A program made the position numbers and the translations under genes. A stretch of 64,000 nt of DNA from Zingiber officinale. Its lineage: Eukaryota > Streptophyta > Magnoliopsida > Zingiberales > Zingiberaceae. The DNA is taken from assembly GCF_018446385.1 (NCBI RefSeq), contig NC_055990.1:137714996-137778995 (forward strand), read 5' to 3'. Shown here piece after piece: positions 13,138 to 56,730 of this stretch (position 1 is the stretch's first letter; each line of letters starts with the position of its first letter). The notes beneath the pieces are model-generated. The model was given only the letters and a program-made list of their open reading frames with translations. It searched no databases and was not told where the DNA came from.

Positions 13138-13540
13138 CCCAATTGGTTAGTCATACTCACAATTAGTTACCACGTCAGATCAGATTCAATCCAGCCATCC
13201 AAACCTTACAACAACTCTTTTTTGCTTCTTACAATCGATCACCTAATCAATTCACTTTTGGCAGAATTAATTACTTAATCGATTCACCAAGCTTTTATTT
13301 TTGCAGAAACCTCCTAATCGATCAGCCAATTAATCTGAGAGCTTTCTATTCTCGCGAAGAGGGCTTCTCAATCGATCTGAGAACTTTCTGTTCTCACGAA
13401 GAAGGCTTCTCCCAATTGATTAGGAAAGGCTGAATCGATTACTCAATCAATTCACTAAACCTTTCACGACAAACCTCCCAACCGATTGAGAACCTTCCTA
13501 ATCGATTACTTTAATCAATTGTCTAACCCTATCTCACTTA
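13138..13540 (-). promoter_or_regulatory. AATCGATT palindrome array upstream of the TATA box
   Basis: More than ten full or decayed copies of a CCAATCGATTGG-like palindrome are scattered over 400 bp just upstream of the minus-strand TATA at 13092-13099. The same array recurs at 18308-18740 in the other LTR. Confidence 0.55.
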
Positions 13541-13559
13541 TCCAAGTTTAGGGTTCTCT

Positions 13560-14060
13560 TGGCTCAACATCCAATCAATCGTGATCTTATGGGACTTCCT
13601 CACCAAATGTTCGATCAACTCTTGACCAACTTGGACTTTCCCTTATCTAGTTGCCAACTAGGACTTTTCTCATGCCAATTGTTTAGCTCACAGCTAACCC
13701 ACCTTGAACTTAACCTAGTTCCCAACTAAGTTTGGCTAGTTCCACTAGAACTTCACTTGTGCCAAGTGTTTAGCTCTTAGCTAACCTATCTTGGACTTAA
13801 CCTAGTTCCCAACTAGGTTTGCCTAGTCCTAATAGAACTTTTCTTATTCCAAGTGTTTAGCTCCCAGTTAACCCACCTTGGACTTAACCTAGTTCTCAAT
13901 TAGGTTTGCCTAGTGCGACTAAGACTTTCATTTGCCTAACCTCCAGTTAGGACTTCTCTTCGCCAACGTATAGTGCTCCTTGACCAACTTAGACTTTCTT
14001 TTTCCTAACTCTCGAATTAGGACTTTACCTTGTTTAAATTTTAGTTAGGACTTTTGCCAG
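13560..14060 (-). repeat. Stem-loop array in U3 of the gag-only LTR
   Basis: A series of short inverted repeats such as CCTAGTT-ccc-AACTAGG (13801-13817) and CCTAAC-loop-GTTAGG. Most are followed on the plus strand by GGACTT, that is preceded by AAGTCC on the element strand. The frame is shared with the arrays at 34211-34868 and 52860-53200. Confidence 0.75.
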
Positions 14061-14193
14061 TCGAGTCTCCAATCAACCTTGACCTACTAGACTTTTGATT
14101 CACACATATTGTCCAAACATCGAAACTCAAGCTCGAGCCAACTCAAGCTTAGTCAACTTGGTCAAGCTTAACACAAGGAAGATTGCACTAACA

Positions 14194-16390
14194 ATTTTCT
14201 CCTTTTTGATGTTTGATAATATGTTTAAGTTATACTACTCATTAGCCCAACTTCCATCTTCATCTCATGTCAAAGCATGAATAAGGCTTTCTAACTTAAA
14301 TCCCACATTTCTACCCCTTTAACACACATCAAAAACTCTTTCTGAGAGTTAATTTGTTCAAAGGGGCCCAATGAATATCTCATACCTTTCATTATAACAT
14401 ATGCTTAACCTAGAGAATTTATCCGTAAAAATAACATCCCTTTAAGGAGAATCTCCCCCTTAAAACATGCTCCAACTTCTATCATTGCATTAATAATGAT
14501 ATGAAGTTTCTAAACCTTTAGGAAATTGTAAAAATATGAAGTTGTGAGGTTAAAAATTCAATATTGAAACTAAACCTCCTCCTTAACTCTAAGTTAGCCC
14601 CATTTTAACCATTCCTTTCTTATTTTCATCAAGAAAATTACCTATAAATATCTATCAAAACATTTTATAGAGTTAGGGATGGTTAATTTGACTAAATGTG
14701 GCTTAACCAATTGAAATCAAATAATTTCAATCAAAATCAGCAACATTAAGCAATTAGTTTCAACTACCAATCGATTACGACCTATGCTAATCGATTAGTG
14801 TTGGGTCTCAATCGATTAGGCCACATCTTAATTGATTAGAGTTGGATTCCAATCAATTATGCCCTTACCAATCGATCGCTTAATCGATCCCGCGAGCTTT
14901 TGTGCTCATAGAAATTCACCATTAATTGATCATTCGATCAATTACGCCATGCCCCAATCGATCACCTGATTGATTAGATTTTTTGATTTCTGAATTCAAT
15001 TTCATATTTAATTTCAAAAACTCATAAATAATTCTACGATTATCTAAAAATTATGAAATTTTATGTATACATTACCTATGTCATATACTATTAGGAAAAA
15101 ATAGTTTTTAATGAAAATATATCTCCCTTTTAAAGATTGACACAAAATTAGAAATAATTAAAAATCTCAATGTTTCCCTCTAACTTAGTGTCCACTTAAT
15201 CAATGGTGACTTCTATCAAAAGATATACTTTACCAAGGTTTTTAAAAATGATTTTGAAATGATTTTTAAAATAAATTTTCAACCACGATCTTTGGGCTAA
15301 ATATGCATGACTTATACGCCAACCTTCTCCATGATTGGACTTCATATAATCATTTGTTTTGATGATATTAAAACTCAAAAAGATACATTAAATCAATATC
15401 TTGAGTTTTGTTCATCTTTATAACATCTCACTTGTATCTAACGTGTCTCAGTACACATAAAAGTCAACCTTATGATTTTTGTGAAATGTAAATTAGGTTT
15501 TTTCTAAACTAAGGGATCATATATTTTTTTAACTAAGCATTTAAACTTTGATCATCCAACCTAGGATGCCAATTAATGTCATTATCCTTAACTACAAAGA
15601 ATTAAAAACAATGCATGATAATGATCATGACATACATCAAATGCATATTTTTAAAAAGAAATTTATGATATCTTGATCTAAATTATGTATGTATGATATG
15701 TATCATTTTCCATGCAAGATGTATGATATGATGACATGACATGTGATAGGGCACACAAAACATGGCAATTTTAACATAAAGAAAATATCTAGGTTTTCTA
15801 TCTAGGTATCATTATTAATCGCTAAGTCAAAAAATAAACCTAGGTTTGCCCTTATCTCCCTAGAAAATGTTAAAATCCCAACTTGGTATTTCTTGAGTTT
15901 TATCCTATTTGTTCCAATTTGATCAAGATCAATTCTTCAAATTTTATTAGCACATTTTTACTCTTTCAAGAATAAAAATCCACTTCTCATTTTCAAGGTG
16001 TCACAATACCTTTAAAATTTCCTAAAGTGTCAACTTTACCGTGGTTGAGTTAACTACTCTTCCAATTAGAGTTGACACACTCTAAACTAATTTAGGATGT
16101 AGAGAACACACTTTTAGGAACTCAAAATCTATTGGTGCTCCTTGGGTATTTTAGATATTCATTTAGGATAACTTCCCCTAATACCTTCCTAATGACTTTC
16201 TTAGGCTTCTTAGAAGTCTTAGTCACACTAGACTCTTCTAGGTCAACTCTTGGGATAACTTCATTTGTAACCTTCTTAATGACTTCCCTTGGCTTCTTAA
16301 AAGCATTAGCCATGTTAGACTTCTCAAGGTTAACTTTAGAGATAATTTTCCTTGAAATATTGGCTTGACTCCTAAACCTAAGGTTGGTTC
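14194..16390 (-). other. 3' noncoding interior of the gag-only element
   Basis: AT-rich, with a purine tract beside the 3' LTR (AAAAAGGAGAAAA on the minus strand, about 14196-14210). A patch of AATCGATT-type motifs lies at about 14768-14965. No reading frame with known domains was found. Confidence 0.6.
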
Positions 16391-17853: not shown

Positions 17854-19391
17854 TTATTAGGACACTTTGGGAGCTAGAAAGGGGGGGGGGGGGTGATTAG
17901 CTTCAATCACTTCAATGATGATTTGTTGCAGTAGAAACTTGGAACAATTGCTAACGCACTCATTTTACTTGATATTCACCTTTTTGAGGTGACTAATCCA
18001 AAGATCGACTCTCCTCACTCACAGATATACTATGAAAACCTCCTTCTCAAAGATGGAGAAGTCTCATACAATCTCAACACGAGAAATACAATGAGAAAAT
18101 ACAATAAAAATACAACAAGAATAAGGAAGTAAATACAACAATAAAAAATCTTGCTCTTAATCTCTTATTGCTCTGGACTGCCTCTTGATACTTGGATAGT
18201 GCAGTAACACTTCTCTTTCAAAACCTCAAGAACTGGCGAAAATTGGCGGAGAAGAAGTGTCTATTTGAATCTTCACTAAATCCCTTTATCACGTTAATTT
18301 ATGTCTCCCAATCGATTGGTCTTACTCCCAATCGATTACCACGTTAGATCAGATTCAATCTAGCAATCTAAACCTTGCAATGGATCTTTTTTGCTTCTCC
18401 CAGTTGATCACCTGATCGATTCACTTTTGACTAAATCGATTCACCAAGCTTCTATTTTTGCGACGAACCTCCCAATTGATCAACCAATAAATTTGAGAGC
18501 TTTCTATTCTCACAAAGAGGGCTTCTCAATCGATTGGTAGTTCCGTAATCAATCTGCCAATTGATTTGAGAACTTTTTGTTCTCGCAAAGAAGGCTTCTC
18601 CCAATCGATTACCCAATCGATTAGGAAAGGCTGAATCGATTATTCAATCAATTCACCAAGCCTTTCGCAGCAAACCTCCCAATCGATTAGGCACCTTCCC
18701 AATCGATTGGCTTAGGGTCAATCAATTAGTTTAATCAATTGCCCAACTCTAGCTCACTTATCCTAAGTATAGGGTTTCCTTAGCCCAACATCTGATAAAC
18801 CATGACTCACTAGGACTTCCTCATCAAATGTTCGATCCACCCTTGACCAACTTAGACTTTCCCTTTCCTTGTTCCTAGCTAGGACTACTCTCGTGCCAAG
18901 TGTTTAGGTCCTATCTAATCCACCTTAAACTTAACCTAGTTCCCAACTAAATTTTCTACTCATACTAAAACTTCACTTGTGTCAAGTGTTTAGCTCTCAA
19001 CTAACCCATCTTGAACTTAACCTAGTTCCCAACTAAGTATTCCTAGTCCCACTAGGACTTTACTTGTGTCAAGTGTTTAGCTCTCAACTAACCCACCTTG
19101 GACTTAACCTAGTTCCCAATTAGGTTTGCCTAGTGCCACTAGGACTTCCATTTTCCTAACCTCCAGTTAGAAACATGCAATCCTCCTTAATCCACTTGAA
19201 CTTTCCTTTGTCTAACCCTTGAGTTAGGACTTTATCTTGCCTAACCTCCGTTAGGACTTTGTCAGTCAAGTCTCTGATGACCTACTAGACTTCTAATTCA
19301 CACATATTGTCCAAACATCGAAACTCAAGCTCGAACCAACACAAGCTTAGTAAACCTGGTCAACATTGACGCAAGGAGGATTGCACTAACA
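17854..19391 (-). repeat. 5' LTR of the minus-strand gag-only element
   Basis: 1,538 bp, partner of 12722-14193. A degraded primer site (TGGTATC on the minus strand, 17846-17852) lies at its inner edge. A G13 run (17881-17893) corresponds to the poly-C tract near the LTR end. The TATA box is mutated here (TTGAAT near 18265). Confidence 0.88.
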
Positions 19392-20690
19392 ATTTCTTCC
19401 TCTAATTCGTCATTTAAAAAGATTACTTTCACATCTATTTGATGTATCTCAAGGTTATGCATTACAATAATTGCAAGAAGTACTTGAATGGATGTGATCC
19501 TTGTTATTGGTCTCAAAGAAGTCAAGGTGTTCCTTTTATTAGAATCCCTTTGTCATTAGTTTTGCCTTGTACTTGTCAATAGTTACATCAGTTTTATATT
19601 TTTCTTTAAAATCTATTTACATTCTAAAGGCTTAATTCTAGGTGGAATATCCACCAATTCTCTAGTATAATTTTGCATGATGAATCTATTTCACTATTAA
19701 TGACTTCTTTCCAAAAAAGAGCATCAAGACTTAATAAGACTTCGATTATTATCCTTAGTTCATTTTCCAATATATAAGTCATAAAATTAGGTCCAGATGA
19801 TTTTACTATTTTGACCTTCTTATTATGTCTTGGTTCTTCATTATTTCCAAGACTATCTATATTCACGCTTTCATGAGTTTTTTATTTAAACTTTCTTCTT
19901 TCCACTCTTTGCAAGGAAAAATATCTTCAAAAAATATAACATTCCTTGAATTTATAATTGTTCTAACATGTTCATCAATAATTGCTAATTTATGCATCAA
20001 AATCAATATGAACTATTGTTATTGACATATCAAATAAAAATACAATTGATTGTTTTTGATCTTATCTTGCTTTACTTTGACTTAGGTACTTCCATCTTAG
20101 CCAAACCCCCTCATACTTTTAGATATTTATAAAAGGTTTATGACCCTTCTATAACTCATAAAGAGTTTTATTTTTATTTTTGTAAGATATTTTATTGAGA
20201 ATTTGGTTTGCTGATAAAATAGTTTCCCCCATAAATTTTGGATTAAATCTGAACTTATCAACATAGCATTTATTATTTCTTTAAGTGTTTGATTCTTATG
20301 CTCGATAATATCATTTGATTGAGGAGAGTAAGGTTCTCTTGTTTGATGAATAATGTTATAATCTATGCAAAATTCATCAAATGGACCATCATATTATTCT
20401 TCTCGATCACTTTGATTTATTTTAATTTGTTGACCAATTTGATTCTCAACTTCATTCGTACAATTTTTAAATGATTTTAAGGATTTGTCTTTGTTTTTCA
20501 TAGACACATATAATAATATCTAGTATAGTCATTAATAAAATTAAAAAATTAATTTTTATCTCCTTTAATTTATATAACTTTAAATCACATATATCACTGT
20601 GAATTAATGCTAGAGGGGTCATACTTCTTTTCATTGAATGGGAAAATAACTATATTATTTTAGCTTCAACATATATTTTACATTTATGTG
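19392..20690 (-). pseudogene. Cop-1 RT N-terminus and integrase, decayed
   Basis: On the minus strand 19397-19525 encodes the RT start (R-I-T-S-I-Q-V-L-L-A, then H-Q-I-D-V-K...F-L-N). The segment 19624-19866 encodes the region before RT. About 19900-20690 gives integrase C-terminal and core pieces with many stops. It is continuous with 12453-12721 on the left and 27725 on the right once the inserted elements are removed. Confidence 0.8.
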
Positions 20691-25202: not shown

Positions 25203-26039
25203 TTAGAACTTCTCATTCTGTGACTTGTGAATTTTAACATTCTTGGGTGGTTGAACTGCATTTTGTTTGACAGACTCTCTTGTATATATGGCTTCTACTT
25301 CTTGAATTTCTGAGGAAGATTCCATCCAACTTTTGCTTGACCATTTATGGAGGTTCAATGCTACTTGATCAATCAATGTATATGCTTCGTCTACACTCTT
25401 GTCCATAAAAGAACCTCTAACTGATGAATCTAACAAACACTTATCTGAGAAAAAAATTCTCCTATAGAATATGTGAAAGGTCAGCCATTTTTCCAAACCA
25501 TGATGAGGGCACTATCTTTGTAGACTCTTGAATCTGTCTCATGCTTCAAATAATGATTTTCTATATGCCTGAGCAAAATTTGTGATGCAATTCCTCATAT
25601 AAATTGTTCTACTTGGAGGGAAAAAATAATCTAGAAATTGCTTCTCCAATTGTTCCCAACTTGAGATGCTTTGAGGACGGAGAGAATATAACCAAGTCCT
25701 TGCTTTATCCTTGATACTAAAAGGAAATGCCATCAAACGAACTGCATCTGCCGACACTCCTTCACAATTCACCATATCACAAAGCTTTAGAAATGTCTCA
25801 AGGTGCAGGTAAGGACTTTCTGATACTTCTCCTCCAAATTTGTAACCTTGTATCATGAAAATTAACTCTGGGTCTAGTTGAAAACTTTCTGCTTCAATAT
25901 GAGGATGCACAATGGGAGATAAAAATCTTACAAAAATGGGTGCAAAGAAATCTCTTAAGGACCTGCTTGACATGTTAGTGCTCATGGTATCTAAAAAAAA
26001 ATTATGAGAAAAGAACAAAAAATAAAGAATTAAAGACAA
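25203..26039 (-). pseudogene. Athila-1 gag
   Basis: The start is near 26039, with the likely real Met slightly inside at M-S-T-N-M. The Retrotrans_gag core (about residues 60-150: R-L-M-A-F-P-F-S-I-K-D-K-A-R-T-W-L, then W-E-Q-L-E-K-Q-F-L-D-Y-F-F) is clear. The same frame resumes at 25496 after two stops, at sites where Trp and Gln codons are usual, consistent with C-to-T decay. It ends at 25203. The protein would form the particle coat and bind RNA; as it stands the copy is broken. Confidence 0.8.
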
Positions 26040-33420: not shown

Positions 33421-33959
33421 TGAATTTTACTGAAAGGATAGAATATGTAATTGTAGTCTTAGCTACATAGATTTGGATTATGCATTAAGGTATTATTACC
33501 CTATACCCCTGATTAGTTCTAGCACTATAGAGCAAAGGAATGAATTTAAAAATGAGAGTGATCAAATCGCATGTGTTTGAGTATCATGAGGCGGCTTTCC
33601 ATTTCAGCACCAATTAAGAGCTCAATAACTGAGGAAGAGGATGCTAGAAATTTCCTTAGCCAATTAGTAGATTGTTTTATGGTAAACGAAAAGGTCGAGA
33701 ATACCATACTTCTTTCGAAGTTGGTAATTATGTGATATAATGGTAAAGGAAACACCATAAAGTATATTATGGAGATGAATAATATCGCTACAAGTTTGAA
33801 AGCACTTAAATTCAATATGTCCGAGTTTATGTTAGTGTCTTTCATCTTGATGTCTCTGCCTTCATGGTCCACTACTTTTAAGATTTTATATAATACTCAA
33901 AAGAAAAAGTGGACATTGAATGAACTTATAGCTCAATGTGTGTAAGAGGAGGAGAGACT
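33421..33959 (+). pseudogene. Cop-2 gag remnant
   Basis: Plus-strand pieces recall a Copia gag: an M-E-M-N-N segment, S-L-P-S-W-S-T-T-F-K, then N-T-Q-K-K-K-W-T-L-N-E-L-I-A-Q-C-V, with stops and frameshifts throughout. It is cut by the solo LTR at 33960 and continues at 35811. A small open frame on the opposite strand here (33546-33872) is chance. Confidence 0.75.
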
Positions 33960-34210
33960 TGTTGGTGCAACCTTAGGTCAAGGTTGACCTGGTTGACCCG
34001 ACTCGAGGTGACTTGACTCGAGTTGTATTTTGATGTTTGACTTGGGAAGATTGTCGGTGCAACCTTAGGTCAAGGTTGACCTAGTTGAGTTGCATGTCGA
34101 TGTTTGACGAGAAGAGAGTTGTATTCTTGATGTTTGACAAGAATAGGTGTTTGGGAGATTGTATGTGCAACCTTAGGTCAAGGTTGACCTGGTTGACCTG
34201 ATTCGCGAAA

Positions 34211-34868
34211 AGTCCAAGTATGGAGACTTGGCACTAGAAAGTCCAAGTACGGAGACTTGGCACGGGGAAAAGTCCAAGCAGGTAGCTTGGCACGCGGAAA
34301 GTCCAAGTATGGAGACTTGGCACGGGGAAAGTCCTAACTGGGATGTTAGGCAGTGTGGAAAGTCCTGGTGAGTGAAGCCAGGCAGTGGGAAAGTCCTAAC
34401 TGGGATGTTAGGCAGTGTGGAAAGTCCTGGTGAGTGAAGCCAGGCAGTGGGAAAGTCCTAACTGGGATGTTAGGCAGTGTGGAAAGTCCTGGTGAGTGAA
34501 GCCAGGCAATGGGAAAGTCCTAACTGGGATGTTAGGCAGTTGGAAAGTCCTGGTGAGTGAAGCCAGGCAGTGAGAAAGTCCTAACTGGGATGTTAGGCAG
34601 TGTGAAAACCCTAGTGAGTGAAGCTAGGTGAAAGTCCTGGTGAGTGAAGCCGGGCAAGGGAAAATCCAGATGGATCAAGGATGATCGGACATCTGGTGTT
34701 GAGAAGGTCAAGTAGGTCAAGGGAGTGACCGGATACTTGACACGAAGAGAAAAGTCCAAGTGGGTCAAAGGGATTGACCGGACACTTGGTGAGGAGTCTT
34801 AGCAGGTCAAGGGAGTGACCGGATGCTAAGCATGATGTACCAACAGGTCAAGGTTGACCGGATGTTGG
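34211..34868 (+). repeat. Array of about 20 stem-loops with varying complementary arms
   Basis: Each unit reads about AAGTC, arm, loop, complementary arm, then often GGCA. Arms seen: CCAAGT/ACTTGG (34214-34231), CCAAGC/GCTTGG (34274-34290), CCTAAC/GTTAGG (five copies from 34333), CCTGG/CCAGG (four copies), CCTAG/CTAGG, CCAGAT/ATCTGG (34666-34696), CAAGTA/TACTTG (34709-34739), CCAAGTG/CACTTGG (34756-34789), CTTAGCA/TGCTAAG (34798-34830) and CCAACA/TGTTGG (34840-34868). The last four enclose an inner GGTCA...TGACC stem. A 61-bp unit of two hairpins is repeated in tandem at 34325-34630. Confidence 0.9.
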
Positions 34869-34911
34869 TTTGGGAGACTTGGGACTTGGTTTGGGCAAAA
34901 ACCAAGCTCTG

Positions 34912-35190
34912 GATCGGTCTGCAGACCGATCCAGCGATATGTTTACTGATCGGTCTGGGGACCGATCAGAATGGAGCCTAGACCGATCAGAATGGAGCCT
35001 GATCGGTCCCCGGGACCGATCAGGGACAGGTGGGATCGGTCCGGGGACCGATCAGATTCCACACAGAGAGTTGGGCAACTCTCTGTGAAGCCTTCTGATC
35101 GGTCTGGGGACCGATCAGCACAGGGCCTGATCGGTCCCCACGACCGATCAGGCAAGGCCCAGACCGATCAGGCTTCAGCCTGATCGGTCC
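34912..35190 (+). promoter_or_regulatory. GATCGGTC palindrome array before the TATA box
   Basis: About seven pairs of GATCGGTC and GACCGATC, several meeting as near-perfect palindromes around a short G/C core. They lie 55-330 bp upstream of TATAAA at 35245. Position suggests a promoter role; this is inference. Confidence 0.6.
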
Positions 35191-35244
35191 ACGTCCTAGC
35201 CGTTGCGTAGCAATGGCTAGTTTCTTCGCTGTCTTCTTTGCAGG

Positions 35245-35250
35245 TATAAA
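35245..35250 (+). promoter_or_regulatory. TATA box of the solo LTR
   Basis: TATAAA in the context CAGGTATAAAGGGG, at about two thirds of the LTR length as expected for the U3/R border. Confidence 0.65.
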
Positions 35251-35810
35251 GGGGTCGAGGGCTGCTGCTGCACTGTGACTTCTTCTTTTCTTCTAGAACT
35301 TCTGTTCTTCTGCTGCTGAAGCTTCTGCTTCAACTGAGCTTTGATTGAGCTCGCCTCCGAAGCTTCGCGTGAGCTTCCAGTCGTCGACCAGCTGCTGCGT
35401 TTGGGTTGTGAAGTTGTTGCTTCACCTCCAGTCGACAAAAAAGCAAGCAATTGGTAGAGTGCTATTGTATTCATATTGTATTGCTTTTCTTACTGTTCTT
35501 GTACTCTTTGTTTGTTGTTGCAAACGTTTGTGGCGAGGTTTCTCCACCCACAAGGAGTATATTGTATTAGCCGGTTCTCCGGGGGCTCATCCACCGACGG
35601 ATTGACTGGACTCGTCCACCTTACGGACACGCCGAGGAGTAGGAGCCCTAATCTCCGAACCTCGTTACATCCTTGTGTTAAGGTTTGGTTTTCTTCTCTT
35701 TCGTTTCTTTGTATTTTCCGCTGCGCTAACACGTTTTGTAGAAAGAAACGACGATTTGGGGTCGGCTATTCACACCCCCCCTCTCTAGCTCCGTACGAAG
35801 GATCCTAACA

Positions 35811-37578
35811 AGACTAAGGTGTGAGACACCTAAAAGTGCTCACCTAGCATCTGGTTCGTAAGGTTTAGGCAAAATGAGAAAGAGAATCAATAAAGGAAAA
35901 AAGAAAACAAACTGCAGATTTTAGAGGTGTTAGCCATAAGGGGCAAAAGAGTAGGATAAGAAATCCACTTGTTTCTTCTGTAAGAAGAAAGAACATATGA
36001 AGAAAAACTATTCCAAGTACGCCAACTGACCTTTAAAAAGGGTAAATTTCTCACTCTTATTAATTCAAAAGTCAATTTGGCTATTGTACCTATTGACACT
36101 TGATGGATAGATATTGGTGCTACTACTCACATAAATGTCACTATGTAGGGTTGTCTCAAGAGCAAACTTCTGCTTAATGGTGAAAAATATATCTATATAG
36201 GTAATGAAAAAAAGATTAAAGTCGAGTCTATTGGTGTTTTTAGATTTTATTTAGGAACTAATAGGTCTTTTGGATTTGGAAAATATATTTATTATATGAT
36301 TTTTTGATAGATTTTAATTTCAATTTCTTGGTCGAATAAATAAGTTATTCTTGTTCGTTTAGAAATATTTTTTTTGTATTTTCTTTAATTTTATGTTGGT
36401 TGATAATGATTTCATAGTTGATAAGCCTTATAAATTAAACATCATAACTCCTAAGGATGACAACATGATTATGCATGGTATATGTATGAAACACAAATTG
36501 ACTAATGAGAATTCATCCATATTGTGGCATAAGCATTTATGACATATATCGAGATAATAGCTAGAAAAGTTAATATCACATAAAATTTTCGATTCCCTTG
36601 ACATATCATATTTTGATGTCTGTATAGAGTGTGTTAAGGGAAAGATAACTAACAAAAGGAATAAGGGAGCAAGTCGATGTAGTGACGTCTTGGAGCTAGT
36701 ACATACGGATGTTTGTGGACTAGTCCCTAAGGCATCTTGGAATAATCAAACATATTTTATTAGTTTCATAGAAGACTACTCTCGATTCGACTATTTATAC
36801 TTTATTCATAAGAAGTCACAATCTTTGTATAAGTTTAAGATTGTCAAAATCGAAGTTGAACTTCAACTAGGTAAAAAAATTAAAGTCATTTGATCCAACC
36901 ATGGAGGTGAATAGTACTGTGGACATGATGAATTAGGTGAACAACTTCCAGGATTTTTATGAACTACCTTGTTGAGTGTGAGATTGTGCATCAGTATACT
37001 ATGCCTAATACACCTAGTTTAAATAATGTAGCTAAACGACACAATCGAACCCTAAAAGATATAGTAAGAAGTATGATGACTTTTACTTCTTTGCCTAAAT
37101 TTTTATGGGGGTGAAGCATTCAAGACTACATTTTATCTACGTATCAAAGTACCTAGTAAGGTAGTAATTAAAATATCATTTGAGATGTGAATGGGTAGGA
37201 AGCCTAGCATTAGGCATTTACACGTCTAGGGTTGTCCAACTAAGGTTAGGTCTTACATGCCTAACGAAATGAAACTGGACTCAAGAACAATTGACTGTAA
37301 TTTTGTAAGTTACACTGAGAAGTCTAGGGGGTATAAATTTTATGATCCCTCTAAGATATCCTTCTTCGAAACAGAAAACACCAAATTCATTGAGGGCAGT
37401 AGAAGTGACAAATCAGGAAAGTATCTTTCGAGGAAAACGTTAGCGATCCTCGTATGATCACTACTAGTGCGATAAGTAACGATATGGTTACAAGACCATA
37501 CATTATAGATATTGCACATCTAGTGAGCATATTGAACCAAGATATTTCCATGATATCTCCAATGTAATTGGAGGAACC
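35811..37578 (+). pseudogene. Cop-2 pol remnant: zinc knuckle, protease, integrase
   Basis: After the target copy AGACT the Copia frame resumes with a knuckle (C-K-K-K-E-H-M-K near 35980). It continues with a protease site (W-I-D-I-G-A-T-T-H near 36105), a zinc-binding integrase segment (H-K-H-L...C-I-E-C-V-K-G-K near 36530-36640), the integrase core start (open at 36690-36893), and a later integrase/linker segment (37257-37457). Many stops occur. RT would follow, but the sequence is cut at 37579 by the LTR of Cop-3. Confidence 0.8.
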
Positions 37579-40180: not shown

Positions 40181-42559
40181 TGTAACGCCCCGCCTTCTAC
40201 TACTAGGCTGTAAGGCCGGTCGCTACAATAATGCTAAACTAAATGACTAATGCGGAAAAACTAGATTGATGAAAATCTTACTAAACTAATTTCTATAAAA
40301 TCTAAACTTAACATTCTAGGTGTACCTAAGGGTTGTACACATGTTAGGGAAGACAATCTATGCCTCTCAGATGACCTGCTAGCTGTAATCAGGCATTTCA
40401 ATCGATCCCTAGATCGATTGGCAATCCTGGATCCAGCTGATACTGGCACGGAAGAAAACTCTGGATCGGTCGGTGGACCGATCCATAAGTAGTACGTCAG
40501 AGGTGGATCGGTCTACCGACCGATCCGAGTGCCGATCGGTCGGTGACCGATCCGATGGCTCAGCGATCGGTCGGCGGACCGATCGGCAAGCTTTGTAACC
40601 TCTCGCGAAGGCCAACTTTACATTGGATCGGTCGGTGGCCGATCCGATGTGCGATACCATTTGCATCCGGATCGGTCGACCGATCCAAGGTTCGGTCGAC
40701 CGATCCATCGATCAGAGTTCTGATTTCGCTCCTGGAACTCCGATTTCAACACTTGTTCGTGCTAAAACATCACACAACAGTTATGCATGTAAAACGTTCT
40801 AATATCTATTAACTAGCATTCTAACATGATCTAGTGCAAAGCTTATTAATTCATAGCATTTAAAACCACTAGAACTGCATAAAAGTATCTTAAAACAAAA
40901 ACTAAGTTCTTAATCTGCTAACTCCCTAAGGATCTTTTATTCCAGTTCCTGCCACACACATCTTGATCTGCATTGACCTCCAACCTCCACTGCTAGTCCA
41001 TTTTCCTTTTACCTGTGTCTGCAGTATAAGGAAAATAGTATCTATAAGCTAAAAGCTTAGTAAGAAACCATCTACTCACAAAAACAATGCATACGATGCA
41101 ACTCATGATTTGAAAACATGCTATTTGAAACATATGAACACTGAATATACTAAGCATGGCATGACATACATCATACAACATGGCAATCATAACTGAACAT
41201 AGAATTATCATGCATATTCACAGGAAAAACTAAGCTGGGCATGATACTGAAACTGAAGCTGAAACTAAGCTAAAACTGATCTTAAACTATAATCACTGGA
41301 TTAGATTAAGAGTTTGAAAGCTAATATCATAGTAAGTGAAAATAGTAATCATGCTGTTTGGGCCCGGCAACTGTACTTGCTATGCGCGCATCCCTAACTA
41401 GACCCGGGTTTGCAAGTCCCGAATTTAGTAGGGTTAACTAGGTTATCTAAACCTAGAACTAGGTTATCTAAACCTAGGGACCGACTATGGGAGCCCAGCC
41501 CAATGGATATCTAATCCAGTACAGTGCCATTGAAAATAAAATACTGAATATAGCTACTAATTGCTTATTTTGCTGTTTCTAGGTTATCTAAACTTAGAGC
41601 TAGGTTATCTAAACCTAGAGGCGACTATGGGAGCCCACCCATTGGACCGTAGTCCCATGTAAGCTGAAACTAGACTAACATACTGATTTAAATTCTACTA
41701 ATGCATTTAACTGAGCTATTAAACATAACTGAGGTGGTATTTAGCTACAGTAACATTTTACCGAACACTTGGTGTGCTCCAACTCTCTCCTCTAATAGGG
41801 AGATCACCTCTAGGCACCCGACAACGTCTAGAATCTCCAACTAAAGGAGACCAACGTGTCCGGCCCGTCTAGAGGTGCTCAACTAGATCCCTAATCCTCG
41901 AGGAGGGTTCAAACACACCCTATGTGCCGAAAAACCTGCATATAGCTAAAACTAATGCGTAGAAAACCAAACGGAGCTATTATACTGCAGGTGAGGGGTT
42001 TCTTACCTCGTACGCTAATTTTCTTACAATTCCTTTCGTTAGAAATTCCGGTGGAGACGACTTCTCGACGATTCGCTCACGTCTTCGCGTTCCTCTCGCG
42101 GAGAAGGACCTTTTTCGTGTTGGAGTCGTCGCCGGAAGATGTTCCCTTGGCCCTTGGGGGCTTGGTGTGCCGTGAGAAGGAGGAGGAAGAGGGGCGCCGA
42201 GAGAAGGAGGAAGAGGAGAAGGGTGGCGTGAGGGTTTCGGTGGTGAGGAGAGGGCTGCCGAACCAAATTAAACCAAACCCACTTATGTTTTCCTATTTAT
42301 ACTAAATATTTAATTCGGCCAAACCAATTATAAATATAATTGATTCCCTTTCCTTTCAGCACGGCCCTGCTGGGTTCAACCGGTTACTAACATTATCCCG
42401 AAACCATAGGTCTCGGGTTCGATTCCCGCCTAAGCTATTTTGCGGTTCTAATTATTTTTGCTACTTCCGATACTCGGAAAATTCCGGAAAAATATCTAAA
42501 AATTCCAGAAAAATTATTGAATAATTCTAAAATAGTTTTAAGAATTTTCGGGCGTTACA
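40181..42559 (-). mobile_element. Gypsy-type (Tekay-like) solo LTR, minus strand
   Basis: Target duplication TACCT (40176-40180 and 42560-42564), with terminal inverted ends TGTAACGCCC and GGGCGTTACA. A minus-strand TATA box (TATAAATAG, about 42294-42302) places U3 at the right, so the element runs leftwards. It contains a GATCGGTC palindrome array (40463-40712) near its 3' end, four CTAGGTT-atcta-AACCTAG inverted repeats (41438-41618) and a tRNA B-box-like GGTTCGATTCC (about 42417-42427). No genes are inside. Confidence 0.88.
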
Positions 42560-45098: not shown

Positions 45099-46733
45099 TG
45101 TCACGCCCTAGGGGAGTCCCTGTCAGAGGAAATTCCGACAGCATCTCCCTTGTACGGGTGACAATCTGATACTTGACTACATAGCCCTCACGACCTCTCA
45201 ATCCTCGGCCAACACGGCCAGAACATATATAATAATATAAATAAACTTCCACGCAGTTTATAATAAATTAGCCTATGACTGACCACACAACCACGCAAGG
45301 GCGGATCTAGCGGCGGCGGCGGCGGCGGGGGGGGCGCTAGTATTATGGGATCCATCAATGGAGATAGAGGATTCCACCCCCTTGTTCCGTGTAAAAATTG
45401 CCCCTCCATGCTTAAATTCCTGGATCCGCCACTGCAACCATGCAGTTAATAATAATACCTACTCCACTACTCGAGGAAAACACAACCCACAACAGAAAAC
45501 CAACGCGGCAGAAAATAAGGGTAGTAGACCAAAACTCGATATAACATCCACAAGTACAAGATCTACACATCACATGCATGTAGATCACAAAACAAGGACA
45601 CAAAGTCTGAAAGTAGAAAATCAATGGAAATAGAGGATACTGCCCCTTGTTCCATGTAAAAATCGCCCCTCCATGCTTGAATTCCTGGATCTGCCACTAC
45701 AACCACACAGTTTATAATAATACCTACTACACTACTCGAGGAAAACACAACCCACAACGAAAAACTAACATGGCGGAAAATAAGAGTAGTAGACCAAAAC
45801 TCGATATAACATCCACGAGTACAAGATCTACACATCACATGCATGTAGATCACAAAACAAGGAAATAAAGTCTAAAAGTAGAAAACTATATCTACACGAG
45901 GTGGGGGACTAGTGATTGGAACCTCTTGATAGCCTCAACCTGAAATAGAAATAAAGCAACGGGGTGAGTTTAACAACTCAACGGTTATCAAACTGACATG
46001 CATAGTAAGATATATCTATAAGTAATAATCATGGAGTACAATCTCCTAATCAATAACAAGAAATGTAAAACTGAGCAACAAAAGAAGAACTGTACTCACT
46101 TGGCCTCCTATCCTGACATAAGGGTTATCAGACCAAATACCTCATGTCTCCTGTATGCATATCAAACATATGCATCCATAAAAATGGAGCATCCAAAATG
46201 CAACAATCATAAGCAATAGATGCAATCCATGCATATGATGTAAATGTCATGGTCACCCTTGACACCAGTTAGTCATCTCACACATGATGGTGAGACCGAG
46301 TGGGTAGGGCTATGACAATTGTGCACTCTATCATCACTACTCCTAAGTGACCGAGTAGACAAGATGTTGTCGGAGTACACCTATCCTCTTACTCCAAATC
46401 ATAGTGGGGGAGCGCAATGCTCTCATCTCCCTGTGTCATAATCAAGAGGAGGGATCCCTGTCCTGCTACCACGCTACAATCACACTACCCACGAGCGGAC
46501 CAGTGGAGCCCTGACAGAGCAAACTGCACACACCCTGTCTGATATACCACTAACCCATGAGTGGTTGTGTGTACAGATCCATGTATTTGATGATGTGCTC
46601 AACAATAATGGAGTCGACAATCGCTCAGCATACAAAAATGGTACATGACACTAAGTATGTAACTCCTGAAAATATCAACCTCCTCATAATGTGTACCAAA
46701 AGGAAAACTAAGTCCATAATAATGATCTAGGTG
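45099..46733 (+). repeat. Probable Gypsy LTR fragment
   Basis: Begins TGTCACGCCCTAGGG, a start common in plant Gypsy LTRs. It is followed by phrases usual in such LTRs, with GGGTGAGTTTAACAACTCA near 45961. The other end is not found: an Angela-family LTR starts at 46734. Includes a CGG-repeat (about 45310-45328) and a 266-bp tandem duplication. Confidence 0.45.
45355..45886. repeat. 266-bp tandem duplication
   Basis: Unit 1 at 45355-45620 and unit 2 at 45621-45886 run collinear with scattered substitutions, so the duplication is not recent. Short frames on both strands inside are repeated in parallel and not considered genes. Confidence 0.85.
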
Positions 46734-48903
46734 TTGGAGTGTATACTGAAAGCCTAAGCTTTTGTAAACATTTATTTGAAATAAAGAATCACATTTGGTC
46801 AAATTATCTACATTTGTTTGTAGTTGTTCAATTAATTTATATTGTAGATAACATAGTATGTGGTGTCACATGCAGAAGATGATGTTATCAGTACCTTATA
46901 AATTATAAACAGTAGCTCACGACCAAAATGAAAAGGAACAAATCGTTAGAAGATCGTAGTGTAATTAGGTATTAGTTTATCTTGAATATATAATTACACT
47001 AGTACACTCAGAGTGTATTGAGTAGGACCATTTGAGGTCGTTTCTTTTATACTGACTTTATAAAGGAACAAAGACCTCGGTTATTATGGAGGTGTGTGCT
47101 CTTAATCCTAATATAATAACAAACACATATATTTGATATTTATTTCTTTAATTTATCAATAAGTGAGATTTAGTTCGATGAATCAATAAACCCGATAAGT
47201 TGAGAAATGATATCACTTATAGTGTGTGTTGTTGATTATAGAAGGAAACTGTGTCCTAGAGATACTAGGTTGATAATGTCCTCAAGAGGAGCTCGTAAGG
47301 ATTGTCATGTTAAACCCTGCAGGTGGACTTAGTCCGACATGACGATAAGGTTGAGTGGTACTACTCTTGGACTAAGATATTAATTAAATGAGTTGTCAGT
47401 AACTCACTTAATTAGTGAACATTCGATATCTTAAACACATGGAGACTAACACACTCATAATAAGAAGGAGCCCAAAAATGTAATTTGGGATTGGTGCGGT
47501 AATTCAATAATAGTTCTCTAGTGGAATGAATTATTATTGATAAAATTAAGTTGTGTGTTCGGGGCGAACACGGGATGCTTAATTTTATCAGGAGACCAAA
47601 ACCAATTTCTCCTCTCGGTCTCTATCGTAGCCTCTTATTTATAGAGTACTATACCCACCTTCTATACCCACCTAAAGGGGGCCGGCCAAGCTAGCTTGGA
47701 ATCAAGCTAAGGCCGGCCTAAGCATGGTTTAGGGTGGCCGGCCCTAGCTTGAACCCAAGCTAGAGGGGGCCGGCCATAATTAAATTAAAAAAGAATTTTA
47801 ATTTTAATTTTTATTATGTGGAAGATATAATTTATTAAAGAGAATTAAAATTAAAATATCTCTCTTAAAAGGATCTACAAAAGATTAAAGAAAGAGATTA
47901 GATCTCTTTCCTTATTTGTAGATTGGAAAGATATTTTATTTTCTCTTTAAAAATTATTCACATGTTGAAAAATTAAAATTATAGAAATTTCTTTTTATCA
48001 ACCATGAAGGGATTTTTGAAGAGAAATTTTATTTTTAAAATTTCCGTAAACAAATTAGGAAGTTTTAATTTGTTGATTGAAACTTGTCTAATTTGCCTCT
48101 CTATGATGTGGCCGGCCATTAAGAGTTTAATTGGGAAATTTTATTTTATTTTTCTCAATTAAATCATGTCAAGGAAATTAAGGAAATTTTATTGTAATTA
48201 AATTTCATAATTTACCAAGGCTAAGGAATATAAAAGAAGGGGTGGGGGTGCCTTCATTGTGTACAACCTCTATTATTTTTCCTTCCTCTCTTATTCCTTG
48301 GTGTGGCCGGCCAACATCCTCTCCCTCTCTTCCTCTTTGTGGTGGCCGAAACATCCCTCTTGCTTGGAGCTCTTGTGGTGGCCGGATATTACTTGGAGAA
48401 GAAGAAGAACAAGAAGAAGGAGAGAAAGCTTGCATCCCTTGGAGCTTGGTTGGTGTTTTTCTTCTTCCTTGGTGAAGCTCTCTTGTGTTGGCCGAACCTA
48501 GCTAGGAGGAGAAGAAGGTTCATTGGTGGTTTCTCATCTCGGAAGATCGTTGCCCACACAACGTCCGAGGTTAGAAGAGGAATACGGTAGAAGATCTAGA
48601 GGTCTTTCTAAAAGGTATAACTAGTAATTTTTCTTTCCGCATCATACTAGTTATTTTTGGAAATAATACCAAATACAAGAGGTTTACGATTCTAGTATTT
48701 CAAATATATTTTTCGATGTTGTGTTCTTTTGTTTTATTTTTTCCTTGTGATTTGATTGTTCCTTTTGGTTAACCTAAAGTTATTTTAGGAAATTAAATAT
48801 TAGCTTTCCATAATTGGTTTTGTCTAGTCGGTGGTGGTTGCTCCCATATCCAAGAAGGTCATGTGCGTCGCCACGTCAGTACTGGGAACCAATTAAATAT
48901 AGA
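46734..48903 (+). repeat. Truncated Angela-family LTR
   Basis: Starts TGTTGGAGTGTATACTG and matches the 3' LTR at 7048-8918, with about 0.5 kb extra (about 47160-47680). GGCCGGCC palindromes stand at 47680-47780 and 48305 and a TATA box at 48229-48235. The match stops at about 48903, leaving off the last 220 bp or so, where Athila-2 sequence begins. Neither internal sequence nor a second LTR adjoins it. Confidence 0.85.
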
Positions 48904-52438: not shown

Positions 52439-52645
52439 TCAAGGCGCCTTGAAGAGCCGCCTCAAGCCGCGTCACCCGCGTGGATCAAAACCGACCTGGT
52501 CGAATTTCATCCATTCAAGGCGCCTTATAGCCCTCTCAAGGCGCCTTCAAGGCGCCTTCTGCCCTCAGTGGTGCTTTGCAGCCAGCTCAGCTTTTGCATC
52601 CGAGGCGCCTCAAGCTCCATGGAGGGCGCTGTTCATCCGAGGCTT
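52439..52645 (-). promoter_or_regulatory. AAGGCGCCTT palindrome array before the TATA box
   Basis: Six or more copies of CAAGGCGCCTT or GAGGCGCCTC lie immediately upstream, on the element strand, of the TATA-like CTTTATAAGG at 52423-52433. Confidence 0.6.
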
Positions 52646-53293: not shown

Positions 53294-54620
53294 TAGTGCT
53301 TTTCTGAATTATCAATTCTTTGAGTTAACACCTTTAATTCTTGCTTCATTTCGTTTTGACTCAAGATGAGCTCTTCAATCATTTTCTCTAATCTAGAAAT
53401 TTGATTGCTCTGAGAAGGTTGTTGTTGAAAATTTTGTTGCCCAGGCTGGAAACTTGGTCTAGCCCCCATAGATGGCCCTTGTTCTTGATTATTTTTATAA
53501 GAGAAATTTGGATGATTCTTCCACCCAGGATTGTATGTGTTTGAATATGAATTGTTCTGTCTCCGATTGTAACTAACAATGGCATCACACTGCTCAAGTT
53601 GATTAATTTATGCAGAAATAGCTCCTAAAGGATATGAGTCTTGAGCATAATCAGAACTTCCATATGTTTCACAACAACATATTATGGCATTGATCGTGCT
53701 AGTATTTGTTCCCATATTTTCCATCTTCTTTGTAAGAGCATCCAATTTTACAGACATTATATTAATTGCATCCACATCAAATTTTCTTGATGCTTTAGTT
53801 GGGTTTGAAAATGAATAGCCTCCACTTCTTTCTGTGGCTCACTGATGATGGTTTTGTGCTACACTTTCAATAATATCTTCGGCTTCATCCAAACTTTTAT
53901 TCATAAGTGCCCCTCCAGCAGCAAAATCTAATGACACCTTAGTATGATAATTGATACCATTATAGAATGTATGCAACACCAGTCACTTCTCCAATCCATG
54001 ATGTGGGCATTGTCTGAGCATGTTATTGTGTCTATCTCATGCTTCAAATAAGGATTCTGAATCTGACTGTCTGAAGCTTGCAATAAGATTTCTCATATGA
54101 GCAGTCTTGCTTGAAGGATAGAATTTATCAAGGAATTATTGCTCACATTGTTCCCAAGTGGTAATGCTATTTGCTAGTAGTAAATTTAGCCATTGTTTGG
54201 CTCTATCTATTAAAGAAAACCCAAATAATAATAATCTCACGGCTTCAGATGGAACACCATTCATCTTCATAGTTCAGCAGATTTCATAAAAAACTTCTAA
54301 GTGTTGATTAGGATCTTCATGTGGTCCACCCCCAAATTGATTCTATTGGACCATACTGATTATCACAGGCTTGATCTTAAAATTATTAATTTCAACAGAG
54401 GGTCTTGTGATGCTAGAACGAAATCCTTTGGTATAAGGTGCTGCGTAATCTTTAAGCAGTTTGTTTGTCATATTTGAATGTACTTGTTCTTCTAAATGTC
54501 TTTGCGAGGTTTTCCTTTTATGAAAGGTTCTATCAATTTTGGGATCAAAAGGTAGCAAATCACCTACAAAGTTAGATCTTCGCATACATGAACAAGATTA
54601 TAGAATTTGATTCATAAACA
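53294..54620 (-). pseudogene. Athila-2 gag, decayed
   Basis: The N-terminal part is open at 54343-54585. The Retrotrans_gag core follows at about 54060-54330 (R-L-L-L-F-G-F-S-L...W-L-N, then W-E-Q-C-E-Q...F-L-D-K-F-Y), with stops. A Gln/Asn-rich part lies at 53388-53597 and a coiled-coil end stops at the solo LTR. Coding resumes at 52016. Confidence 0.8.
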
Positions 54621-54761: not shown

Positions 54762-56730
54762 TGTTGGGTTTTTCGGGCCGCGAAAACAGCTTTTTCGCGT
54801 CGCGGAAACCCCGAAACCCCCTAGCCATTGGATCCGTGCGAAGAAAACTTTCGAAAATACGAGTACGAGTTTCAAACTATGATCTACAGTAGATCTACAA
54901 AGGAAAAACATTTTATACCTTCGATGTGTGCCCTTCACGAATCCCGCTCGTCCAAGGTACGCCGGATCTCGTGATTGTCAACGTAGACAATCCTCTAGAA
55001 GTATCCACACGAACAAGATGTGTTCTCTAACACACAAGGATGGAGAAGAGAGCACCACAAGTGTGCTAGCACTCTCTAGGTCTCTCGGGTAGGATTGGAA
55101 GAAGAAGAAAGGAAAAGAAGAGAACACACTCCTCTAAAATCTCTATGTGACTTTCACTAACCTTTCTTCTTGGATTAGATTCACTCTCCTTTCTTCTCCC
55201 TTGCTTGAAACCCACGACCAAGAGAAGAGAAGGAGCAAGAAGAGAGCTTAGGAGGAGGAAGATCACTTGAATGAGAGTTACTCTTGCAAAATGAAACTCT
55301 TTTCATCTAATTAAGTGGTTTGTAACCTCCATGGGATACCAAGAGTCACAACTCTTGGTAACTCCCATGAGGTGGCACTTCACTTAAGTAACCATGATGA
55401 TGTGGAGCATCATCATTGGTCCACTTAATGCCAACTCACCAATGAGGTGGCATAAAGTCAAGTCAAACTTGACTCTTCATCTTCCTCTCAAGTCAAGTCA
55501 AACTTGACTTAATCTCTCTCATGGTTGATCTAATCCAACCATTTAATTCAAGCCAATTTAATATAATGAATCTAATTCATTTAATTAAATTGATTCAATG
55601 AGTCATAATCTAAATTAGACTCATTGAACACATGAATCAACTTGAGTCCAACTCAATTAGCCCAATTAGGATTACTCTTAATCCAATTTGATTCATCAAA
55701 TGAATCTAATCCTCTTGGTTCATCATATGAACCTAATCTCCATCCACTTGTTCTTTGTGTGTGACCCAATAGGTTCTTGTAACGTTGGCAATGCCCCTAA
55801 ACTCATTTAGAAACATAAGTAATGAGCGGTATCTAGCAATACATCATTACTACCCAAGTTACAAGAATGTTGAGATCCAACATCACCTTGTGACTACTAA
55901 TTGTGACTCCTCACAATATATGACAAGTATCCTTCTATCCTAGACATCTAGATTGATCAATGTGAGACATAGACCGTGTCATCCTCTAATCAATCTAAAT
56001 CTTGAACTCCAAGTAGACTCACTCAATCAAATGAGCTCAATATCTCATATTGACTCATTTGGGCATGGCCATGCACTTCGTGGTCTCACTCTATCAAAAA
56101 TACCAATGTCTCTCTCGTCATATAGGAGGGATAGATCCCATCTACATCACTCACATCCCTCCGCATACTTTGTTACATACCCAGTAATCGCCTTTATAGT
56201 CCACCCAGTTACGGGTGATGTTTGACGAAACTAAAGTACATACCTCCTTATGTAGGGAACCATGGTGACTTCAGGTCTAAGGACTAGTAGTCATACTAAT
56301 AGCCACATGAGAAAGTATATGACACTCATATAACGATCCATGATACTTTCTCATGGTGGGTCATTCAGTATACATTCTCCAATGCATACCCATGTGTCAA
56401 CTTGATATCTCTATATCCATGACTTGTGAGATCAAGTCATCGAGTTGACCTACATGCTAGTCTTATTGCATTAACATTGTCCCTGAATGTTAATACTCGA
56501 CTAGGAATGATTAAGAGTAGTGTTCCCTATATCATCTCACTATCGGTTCAACTAACCGATTGATATAGGTGAGAACCTTCTACTCAAGGACATTATTATA
56601 CTTAGTTTATTTGGCACCAATACAAGTAAGTATAATAACCAAAAACTAAATGCCTTTATTTATATAGAATATGATACAACAAGTCCAAAATACAATCATC
56701 AAATGATTGACTCTAGGGTTCTAACTAACA
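54762..56730 (-). mobile_element. Solo LTR, 2.0 kb, family S copy 2
   Basis: Target duplication ACAGC (54757-54761 and 56731-56735). It is the reverse-oriented relative of 375-2184: begins TGTTGGGTTTTTCGGG on the plus strand and ends CTAACTAACA. It is about 160 bp longer than copy 1. A short frame on the strand opposite to the LTR is shared with copy 1 (55953-56225 here, 937-1152 there) but shows no known domain. Confidence 0.92.

Follow-up and report, generated by a model that had tools for sequence, protein, structure and literature searches.

A tandem hairpin array with covarying arms in the U3 of an abundant ginger LTR retrotransposon family: a possible structured RNA element

What keeps the arms of a run of short inverted repeats complementary when their sequences differ, and does the folding concern the RNA or the DNA of the element that carries them? 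The question was raised by one long terminal repeat (LTR) of ginger (Zingiber officinale), located in the stretch of 64,000 nucleotides analyzed here (the window). LTRs are commonly viewed at the DNA level, that is, as promoters and integration ends. A first-pass annotation of this locus had proposed that the matched arms are the mark of selection for pairing or of a copying mechanism that regenerates hairpins. We therefore looked at the array, at its relatives in the same element family and at the way in which the arms change.

The sequence at 33960-35810 has TG..CA ends and a 5-bp target site duplication (TSD), as LTR retrotransposon sequences do. As the TSD flanks both sides and no second LTR copy was found among direct repeats of at least 100 nt in the 64,000-nt window, this LTR is solo, and by eye its insertion site looks like a decayed Copia coding region. 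The array had been placed within one LTR; this LTR is a solo one, and it holds two palindrome arrays, the hairpin array being the first of them (Table 1). The LTR ends are similar, few substitutions apart, in 39 aligned copies. In family copies, the primer binding site (PBS) TGGTATCAGAGC, presumably matching the initiator Met tRNA, stands directly 3' of 5' LTRs, and the polypurine tract (PPT) AAAAAGGGGGAGA directly 5' of 3' LTRs. A 185-aa open frame with a gag-like look follows the PBS in one sampled LTR copy (L005) and gave no Pfam match at 1e-3, and no frames of at least 63 aa were found in the 1.25 kb upstream of one 3' LTR (L002). We took the Copia label of the family from the look of this frame and of the LTR ends. 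Nine pairs of neighboring hits are spaced by 5.24-5.44 kb and were regarded as the 5' and 3' LTR of a single element; this spacing is short for an autonomous Copia, and therefore the family is probably non-autonomous. The arrays of the two LTRs in these nine presumed pairs are 97.5-99.7% identical, so that some elements are young.

Table 1. Features of the solo LTR and of its hairpin array (window positions).
Feature	Position	Strand	Description
Target site duplication, 5' copy	33955..33959	+	AGACT
Solo LTR, ginger Copia-like family	33960..35810	+	1851 bp, TGTTGG...CTAACA, TSD on both sides
U3 head	33960..34204	+	three copies of TTGTNNGTGCAACCTTAGGTCAAGGTTGACC (starts 33959, 34051, 34159); TTGAC motifs, which we take to be W-box-like
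Hairpin array	34210..34869	+	20 units in tandem, inside U3
Four short units	34210..34325	+	CCAAGT/ACTTGG (3) and CCAAGC/GCTTGG (1)
Alternating short units	34327..34601	+	CCTAAC/GTTAGG (5) and CCTGG/CCAGG (4), 62-bp higher-order period
Two units with a common loop	34604..34658	+	CCTAG/CTAGG and CCTGG/CCGGG, loop TGAGTGAAG
Composite unit K	34666..34696	+	CCAGATG/CATCTGG, inner GATCA/TGATC
Composite unit L	34707..34741	+	GTCAAGTA/TACTTGAC, inner GGTCA/TGACC
Composite unit M	34756..34789	+	CCAAGTG/CACTTGG; CTAAGTG/CACTTAG in other copies
Composite unit N	34798..34830	+	CTTAGCA/TGCTAAG; CCTAGCA/TGCTAGG in other copies
Composite unit O	34839..34869	+	ACCAACA/TGTTGGT; ACCAATA/TATTGGT in other copies
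Second palindrome array	34909..35193	+	arms (CTG)GATCGGTC/GACCGATC(CAG), arm sequence nearly constant; between hairpin array and TATA box
TATA-box-like motif	35245..35251	+	TATAAAG, about 375 bp downstream of hairpin array
Target site duplication, 3' copy	35811..35815	+	AGACT

About 20 successive stem-loops had been noticed, and we counted exactly 20 between 34210 and 34869: 15 short hairpins with arms of 5-6 and loops of 5-9 nucleotides, and 5 composite ones in which an outer arm of 7-8 is combined with an inner stem of 5-6 (e.g., GGTCA/TGACC) and then GGA. Arms are perfect in 19 of the 20, the exception being the hairpin at 34636-34654 with one T.G pair. At least ten different complementary arm pairs had been claimed; all ten named pairs are present, distinct and perfectly Watson-Crick complementary, and three of them are longer than noted by at least one pair (CCAGATG, GTCAAGTA and ACCAACA). 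The frame described as AAGTC..GGCA was found as AGTC..GGCA in 14 of the 15 short units (exception 34604-34630), while the composite units deviate from it. A cmscan of the window gave no Rfam match above the gathering score inside the array; its only hits in the window were two matches of the plant snoRNA family snoR71, 28.5 kb apart, at 25495-25600 (47.9 bits) and 53993-54099 (49.9 bits).

Many units are tandem duplicates with the 62-bp period, so that the number of independent units is about 10 rather than 20, and the higher-order repeat of two alternating units indicates that tandem duplication is part of the history of the array. A chance collection of inverted repeats was rejected in two ways. 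When the 3' arms of the 10 distinct units were dealt out again at random, 32.7 +/- 4.8 pairs matched, with a maximum of 57 in 20,000 deals, against 64 observed; moreover, the window array holds 20 non-overlapping perfect hairpins versus 7.2 in dinucleotide shuffles.

We also asked how far the array extends in the family. PPT-LTR junctions numbered 20,862 genome-wide at up to 2 mismatches, with 0 for a reversed-pattern control. From 100 listed junction places we used 90 LTRs, which are not a random genome sample because all lie on one contig (C1) with an exact junction match. The array is present in 89 of these 90, which rejects the idea, put forward with the annotation as a way in which it could fail, that the array is unique to the window copy. 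Sampled arrays contain 9-23 non-overlapping perfect hairpins (median 15, shuffled mean 5.8), and the number and order of units differ between LTRs. Some copies (L051, L071, L074 and others) carry an extra unit that has no window counterpart, made of CGGAGA or CAGAGA, loop GGGCTCGGTAGCTCGT, and TCTCCG or TCTCTG. In addition, a diverged LTR pair on the minus strand (13500-14230 and 18720-19440), starting with TGTTAGTGCAA, has a similar AAGTC hairpin array with other arms, e.g., CCTAGT/ACTAGG and, by eye, inner TTAGC/GCTAA; downstream, AATCGATT words are found where GATCGGTC otherwise stands.

The variation between these copies allowed comparing the two sides of each stem. Under the fixed loop TGAGTGAAG (372 copies in 70 LTRs), arms occur as CCTGG/CCAGG in 134, CCTAG/CTAGG in 56 and CCAAG/CTTGG in 9 copies. 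For a list of covarying pairs, we retained those with two Watson-Crick states in at least 2 LTRs and left out nanopore-suspect changes, namely K pair 3 and pair 3 of CCTGG/CCAGG changing to CCCGG/CCGGG. The list, given as copies in the 90 LTRs, comprises CCAAG pair 5 (GC 130, AT 8), pair 4 of the TGAGTGAAG unit (GC 178, AT 76) and pair 3 of its CCTAG form (TA 76, AT 12), pair 2 of the CGGAGA unit, that is, the extra unit (GC 34, AT 30), the unit L pair (TA 11, CG 3), unit M pair 2 (CG 16, TA 12), unit N pair 2 (TA 19, CG 8) and unit O pair 6 (CG 23, TA 15); inner L pair 2 also has two states (GC 24, AT 4 copies).

We then used a parsimony tree test on 67 rows and 61 pairs with 5000 permutations, leaving out pair 34668/34694. 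Results showed 14 same-branch co-changes of paired columns versus a permutation mean of 3.37 (maximum 11), and 7 on internal branches versus a mean of 0.54 (maximum 5); none of the 5000 permutations reached either value. Six of the 7 internal co-changes go from Watson-Crick to Watson-Crick. When partners were slid by 1-4 columns, 3-10 co-changes remained in all and 0-2 on internal branches. An earlier version of the test (54 rows, 62 pairs including 34668/34694, 2000 permutations) gave 18 co-changes, 8 of them internal, with permutation means of 6.6 (maximum 15) and 1.6 (maximum 6), respectively; since slid partners reached 7-14 in all and 1-4 internally, the internal count of this version stands out more clearly than its total. 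Pair 34668/34694, which is K pair 3, was dropped as evidence because it stands in a CAG/CTG context and may be a nanopore miscall.

The 24 of 90 LTRs that could not be matched as far as the end of unit O did not enter the tail tests, and a 63-row alignment was built from 62 of the remaining 66 (length filter) together with the window copy. Over units M-O, 97.2% of its cells are paired. Cells changed on both sides numbered 66 versus 21.3 +/- 7.8 in shuffles (0/500), at 8 pairs versus 3.5 (0/500), and slid partners gave at most 13 double-changed cells. The signal is concentrated, as 61 of the 66 cells fall in three pairs. Three of the eight pairs are represented by a single cell each, from one LTR (L079) in which unit M has been replaced and reads as K-type, and the same three are among the seven tip co-changes of the 67-row test. 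Further standard pair types showed no excess in this alignment (25 vs 24.6), and RNAalifold recovered most of the N and O outer stems and a different stem for M. Unit replacement also accounts for the co-changes at 34711, 34712 and 34714 in the 54-row test (alignment by eye). As the source of all covariation it was rejected, considering that units M, N and O keep orthologous loops and flanks while single pairs switch. Arm covariation above a phylogeny-aware null is thus real, and is carried by about nine pairs; at these pairs, the check for unmatched arm changes found that the changes which distinguish subfamilies have their counterpart in the opposite arm.

The ginger assembly was made from nanopore (ONT) reads with Illumina polishing, according to PMC8342452, and it is one assembly of one genome. 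It could be argued that the covariation is an artifact, produced either by nanopore miscalling of methylated CHG sites or by the alignment of units that are not orthologous. Indeed, CCTGG/CCAGG arms show CCCGG/CCGGG variants, the TGAGTGAAG unit has its arms, and unit O its pair 6, in CWG contexts, and unit replacement does occur (L079; co-changes at 34711-34714). We presume the CCCGG/CCGGG variants to be of the kind that nanopore errors could make, and did not trust them. On the contrary, the sole pair changing from CAG/CTG to CGG/CCG (K pair 3) had been left out of the 67-row test, the other alternative paired states are common to 4 to 44 LTRs each, and those of M, N and O accompany orthologous loops and flanking subfamily differences. 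We consider the artifact the least probable of all the explanations weighed here.

The second palindrome array was treated differently. In copies (L009-L047) whose first arrays are less than 1% different, it differs by 12% with many small indels, while the same copies are mostly 98-99% identical just upstream of it. By eye these changes center on CAG/CTG, and they look like methylation-related nanopore miscalling that polishing did not fix; because the indel patterns resemble basecalling errors, this array was set aside as evidence. The palindromic word GATCGGTC..GACCGATC is arrayed here, immediately upstream of the TATA-like box, and again at 40460-40715.

Other repeats were seen in the window. 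Short perfect hairpins (arm of at least 7 with at least 3 G/C, loop 3-30) number 198 over positions 1-64000 versus 43.6 +/- 5.5 in 30 local Markov simulations, and cluster in several different LTR-like regions. GACTT/AAGTC-rich hairpin clusters lie at 1495-1703 and 55456-55510 (AGTCAAGT..ACTTGACT), the element being apparently present in both orientations. Palindromes GGCCGGCC with CTAGCTTG..CAAGCTAG and repeated AAGGCGCCTT at 47680-47776 and 52517-52558 are possibly more palindrome arrays, and a 265-bp unit is present in two tandem copies, 90% matching, at 45354-45885.

We then considered what happens to the arms after insertion. In 40 young copies chosen by array similarity (the window copy and 39 others), columns differ by 0.91% when paired and by 0.97% when unpaired, and nearly all changes are one-sided; the only double change common to several copies is 34844/34864 (CG 28, TA 11, TG 1). 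As paired and unpaired positions differ equally, the constraint is not on resident DNA; as the arms of young copies decay as fast as the rest, it acts only in replicating lineages. At the tips of the 67-row tree, one-sided departures from Watson-Crick outnumber double Watson-Crick changes by 111 to 5, and on internal branches by 30 to 6. Multiplied lineages also carry non-pairs, namely M pair 7 A.C (9 LTRs), K pair 6 T.T (7) and O pair 6 G.A (3), and mismatches of the outermost pair in L (T.C 8, T.T 6) and N (G.G 4, G.A 3), mostly at stem ends. Therefore, the proposal of selection for pairing or of copying stands in that the array is widespread and its arms are matched at about nine pairs, and needs to be qualified, since the arms of young copies change mostly on one side, as fast as unpaired positions, and some multiplied lineages hold unpaired positions.

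These observations led us to favor, with a probability of roughly 0.45, the reading of the array as a structured RNA element of U3, with arm pairing kept by selection in multiplying lineages. Being in U3, the array lies near the 3' end of the genomic RNA. It would have expanded as a hairpin unit was duplicated in tandem and, in lineages still multiplying, selection would keep the pairing of the arms and not their sequence. Arm steps would mostly run through wobble states (C-G to U.G to U-A, and G-C to G.U to A-U), while loops and spacers would stay purine-rich and single-stranded. The likeliest use, which is a guess, would be that of a multivalent landing site on genomic RNA for a protein such as Gag/NC or a host RNA-binding protein, and such binding might aid packaging, dimerization or stability, which is equally guessed.

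The array might also act as DNA. U3 repeats drive expression in Tnt1 and Tto1, and palindromic cores in promoter or enhancer repeats could bind dimeric transcription factors (e.g., WRKY at TTGAC) upstream of TATA. The array indeed lies 375-1035 bp upstream of the TATA-like box, and internal changes per column are lowest (0.29) in the inner stems with TTGACC/GGTCAA. However, outer arms change sequence yet keep pairing, a behavior that a factor recognizing sequence would not require, and a palindromic site should work either way round, yet nine unit words gave 1144 forward matches and 0 reversed ones in the 90 LTRs. Promoter repeats are for these reasons an improbable explanation of the arms.

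Half-changed states were also compared; a G.U pair is a wobble in the sense RNA, and the corresponding A.C state is one in the antisense. At 8 covarying pairs, sense-wobble states (T.G/G.T) were found in 27 LTRs and antisense-wobble states (C.A/A.C) in 4, a count that includes LTRs related by descent. All six informative pairs lean to sense wobble, two of them by one LTR, and one of these two is 3:3 by copies. The 40 young copies hold one sense-wobble half-state, T.G at O, and one antisense-wobble half-state, C.A at N. Departures from Watson-Crick in the 67-row tree are GU 16, AC 4 and other 10 on internal branches, and GU 38, AC 29 and other 44 at tips; with a Fisher p of 0.07 for GU:AC and 0.09 for GU:rest, the wobble bias is suggestive only. 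Moreover, purines make up 75% of the unpaired array positions and C makes up 6% (24/376), while C accounts for 28% of the paired ones (82/292). Internal-to-tip ratios of change also favor the sense RNA, being lower in inner stems (0.39) and loops (0.38) than between units (0.74); outer arms and the GGA spacer share 0.53, and that the outer arms are no slower than this spacer on internal branches counts against it. We also predicted folding. The mean probability of the designated pairs was 0.46 in sense RNA and 0.65 in antisense RNA, and 0.73 and 0.79 with DNA parameters; in sense RNA, 8 of the 15 short units fell below 0.2 and composite units K-O ranged over 0.42-0.98. Folding z-scores (20 shuffles each) were -4.6 for sense and -11.4 for antisense. 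The predicted folding is less clean for the sense strand than for the antisense, which counts against the RNA reading.

The strongest competitor of RNA selection is templated hairpin repair without function, in which the nascent strand would fold back at a near-palindrome during reverse transcription or replication and copy one arm from the other, so that mutation by itself would keep the arms complementary. PMC8794818 gives this mechanism a published precedent, in that template switching there both produces hairpins and preserves them, and is able to introduce compensatory changes of several bases. It would explain the free decay of resident copies, which are not reverse transcribed any more, and the hairpin excess across the window and several LTRs (198 versus 43.6) is what a general mutational process would give. 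The change from CCTAG/CTAGG to CCAAG/CTTGG also speaks for it: here T-A turned into A-T, and among 89 copies of the unit type neither a T.T nor an A.A half-state was seen. On the contrary, templated repair predicts neither the sense G.U over A.C half-states nor the purine-rich unpaired positions, and multiplied lineages with uncorrected mismatches exist. The absence of reversed words among the 1144 argues against it as well, though its intrastrand form would leave loops uninverted. Considering the G.U lean, the purine-rich unpaired positions and the fixed orientation, we favor sense-RNA selection over DNA palindromes and templated repair, and rank RNA selection first and templated copying, which we hold to be unlikely, second. 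The folded molecule would accordingly be RNA rather than DNA, and kept by selection, as we infer from the pattern of sequence changes.

Twenty stacked stems in a region of the element RNA could, by inference, also be processed into small RNAs or act as silencing decoys. With 5-8 and at most 13 base pairs, the stems are on the short side for a plant Dicer, and we regard this explanation as very improbable.

Taken as a whole, the sequence data are tentatively described, with slightly less confidence than RNA selection itself, by an expandable array of RNA hairpins in U3, in which stem sequence would be free, pairing would be held by compensatory change in the sense RNA, growth would occur by unit duplication, and an advantage would be present while the element multiplies, e.g., as a many-site Gag-binding platform. 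The shape of the unit outlasts its sequence in a family with more than 20,000 LTR junctions, and its thousands of variants are a natural experiment to separate selection for RNA pairing from templated repair, two processes that are rarely separable. If RNA selection is true, plant retrotransposons gain a structured, modular 3' RNA element; if copying is true, hairpin regeneration is at work in a mobile element.

In the literature searched, which left subscription journals mostly outside, we found no hairpin arrays with covarying arms in LTRs, and a hairpin array in LTRs is not described in the available portions of PMC10794571 or PMC4558846. Several known systems share part of its features. 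Like the U3 promoter repeats of Tnt1 and Tto1, the ginger array consists of short U3 repeats upstream of TATA with possible W-box content, and unlike them it has some 20 units whose arms vary but keep their pairing, and purine-rich loops. Tat/Ogre LTR retrotransposons have tandem repeats in a hypervariable 3'UTR (PMC7004042, which lists Macas et al. 2009 among its references); the repeats resemble ours as short tandem units, variable in number and sequence, of an abundant plant LTR retrotransposon. The ginger array differs in its location, the LTR (U3) of a different family, and in that its units are hairpins with covarying arms, a property absent from the consulted passages of PMC7004042, in whose text the word "stem-loop" occurs 0 times. 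Template-switch hairpins (PMC8794818) have perfect arms and compensatory changes as ours do; those concern rRNA and microRNA genes, whereas here we deal with a mobile element, half-states leaning to G.U and a strict orientation. Retroviral packaging signals likewise gather several stem-loops, bound by Gag, in one region of the genomic RNA, but Psi is at the 5' end and has few stems. In conclusion, tandem repeats in U3 are already known, and what would be new in the ginger array is repeats held by structure.
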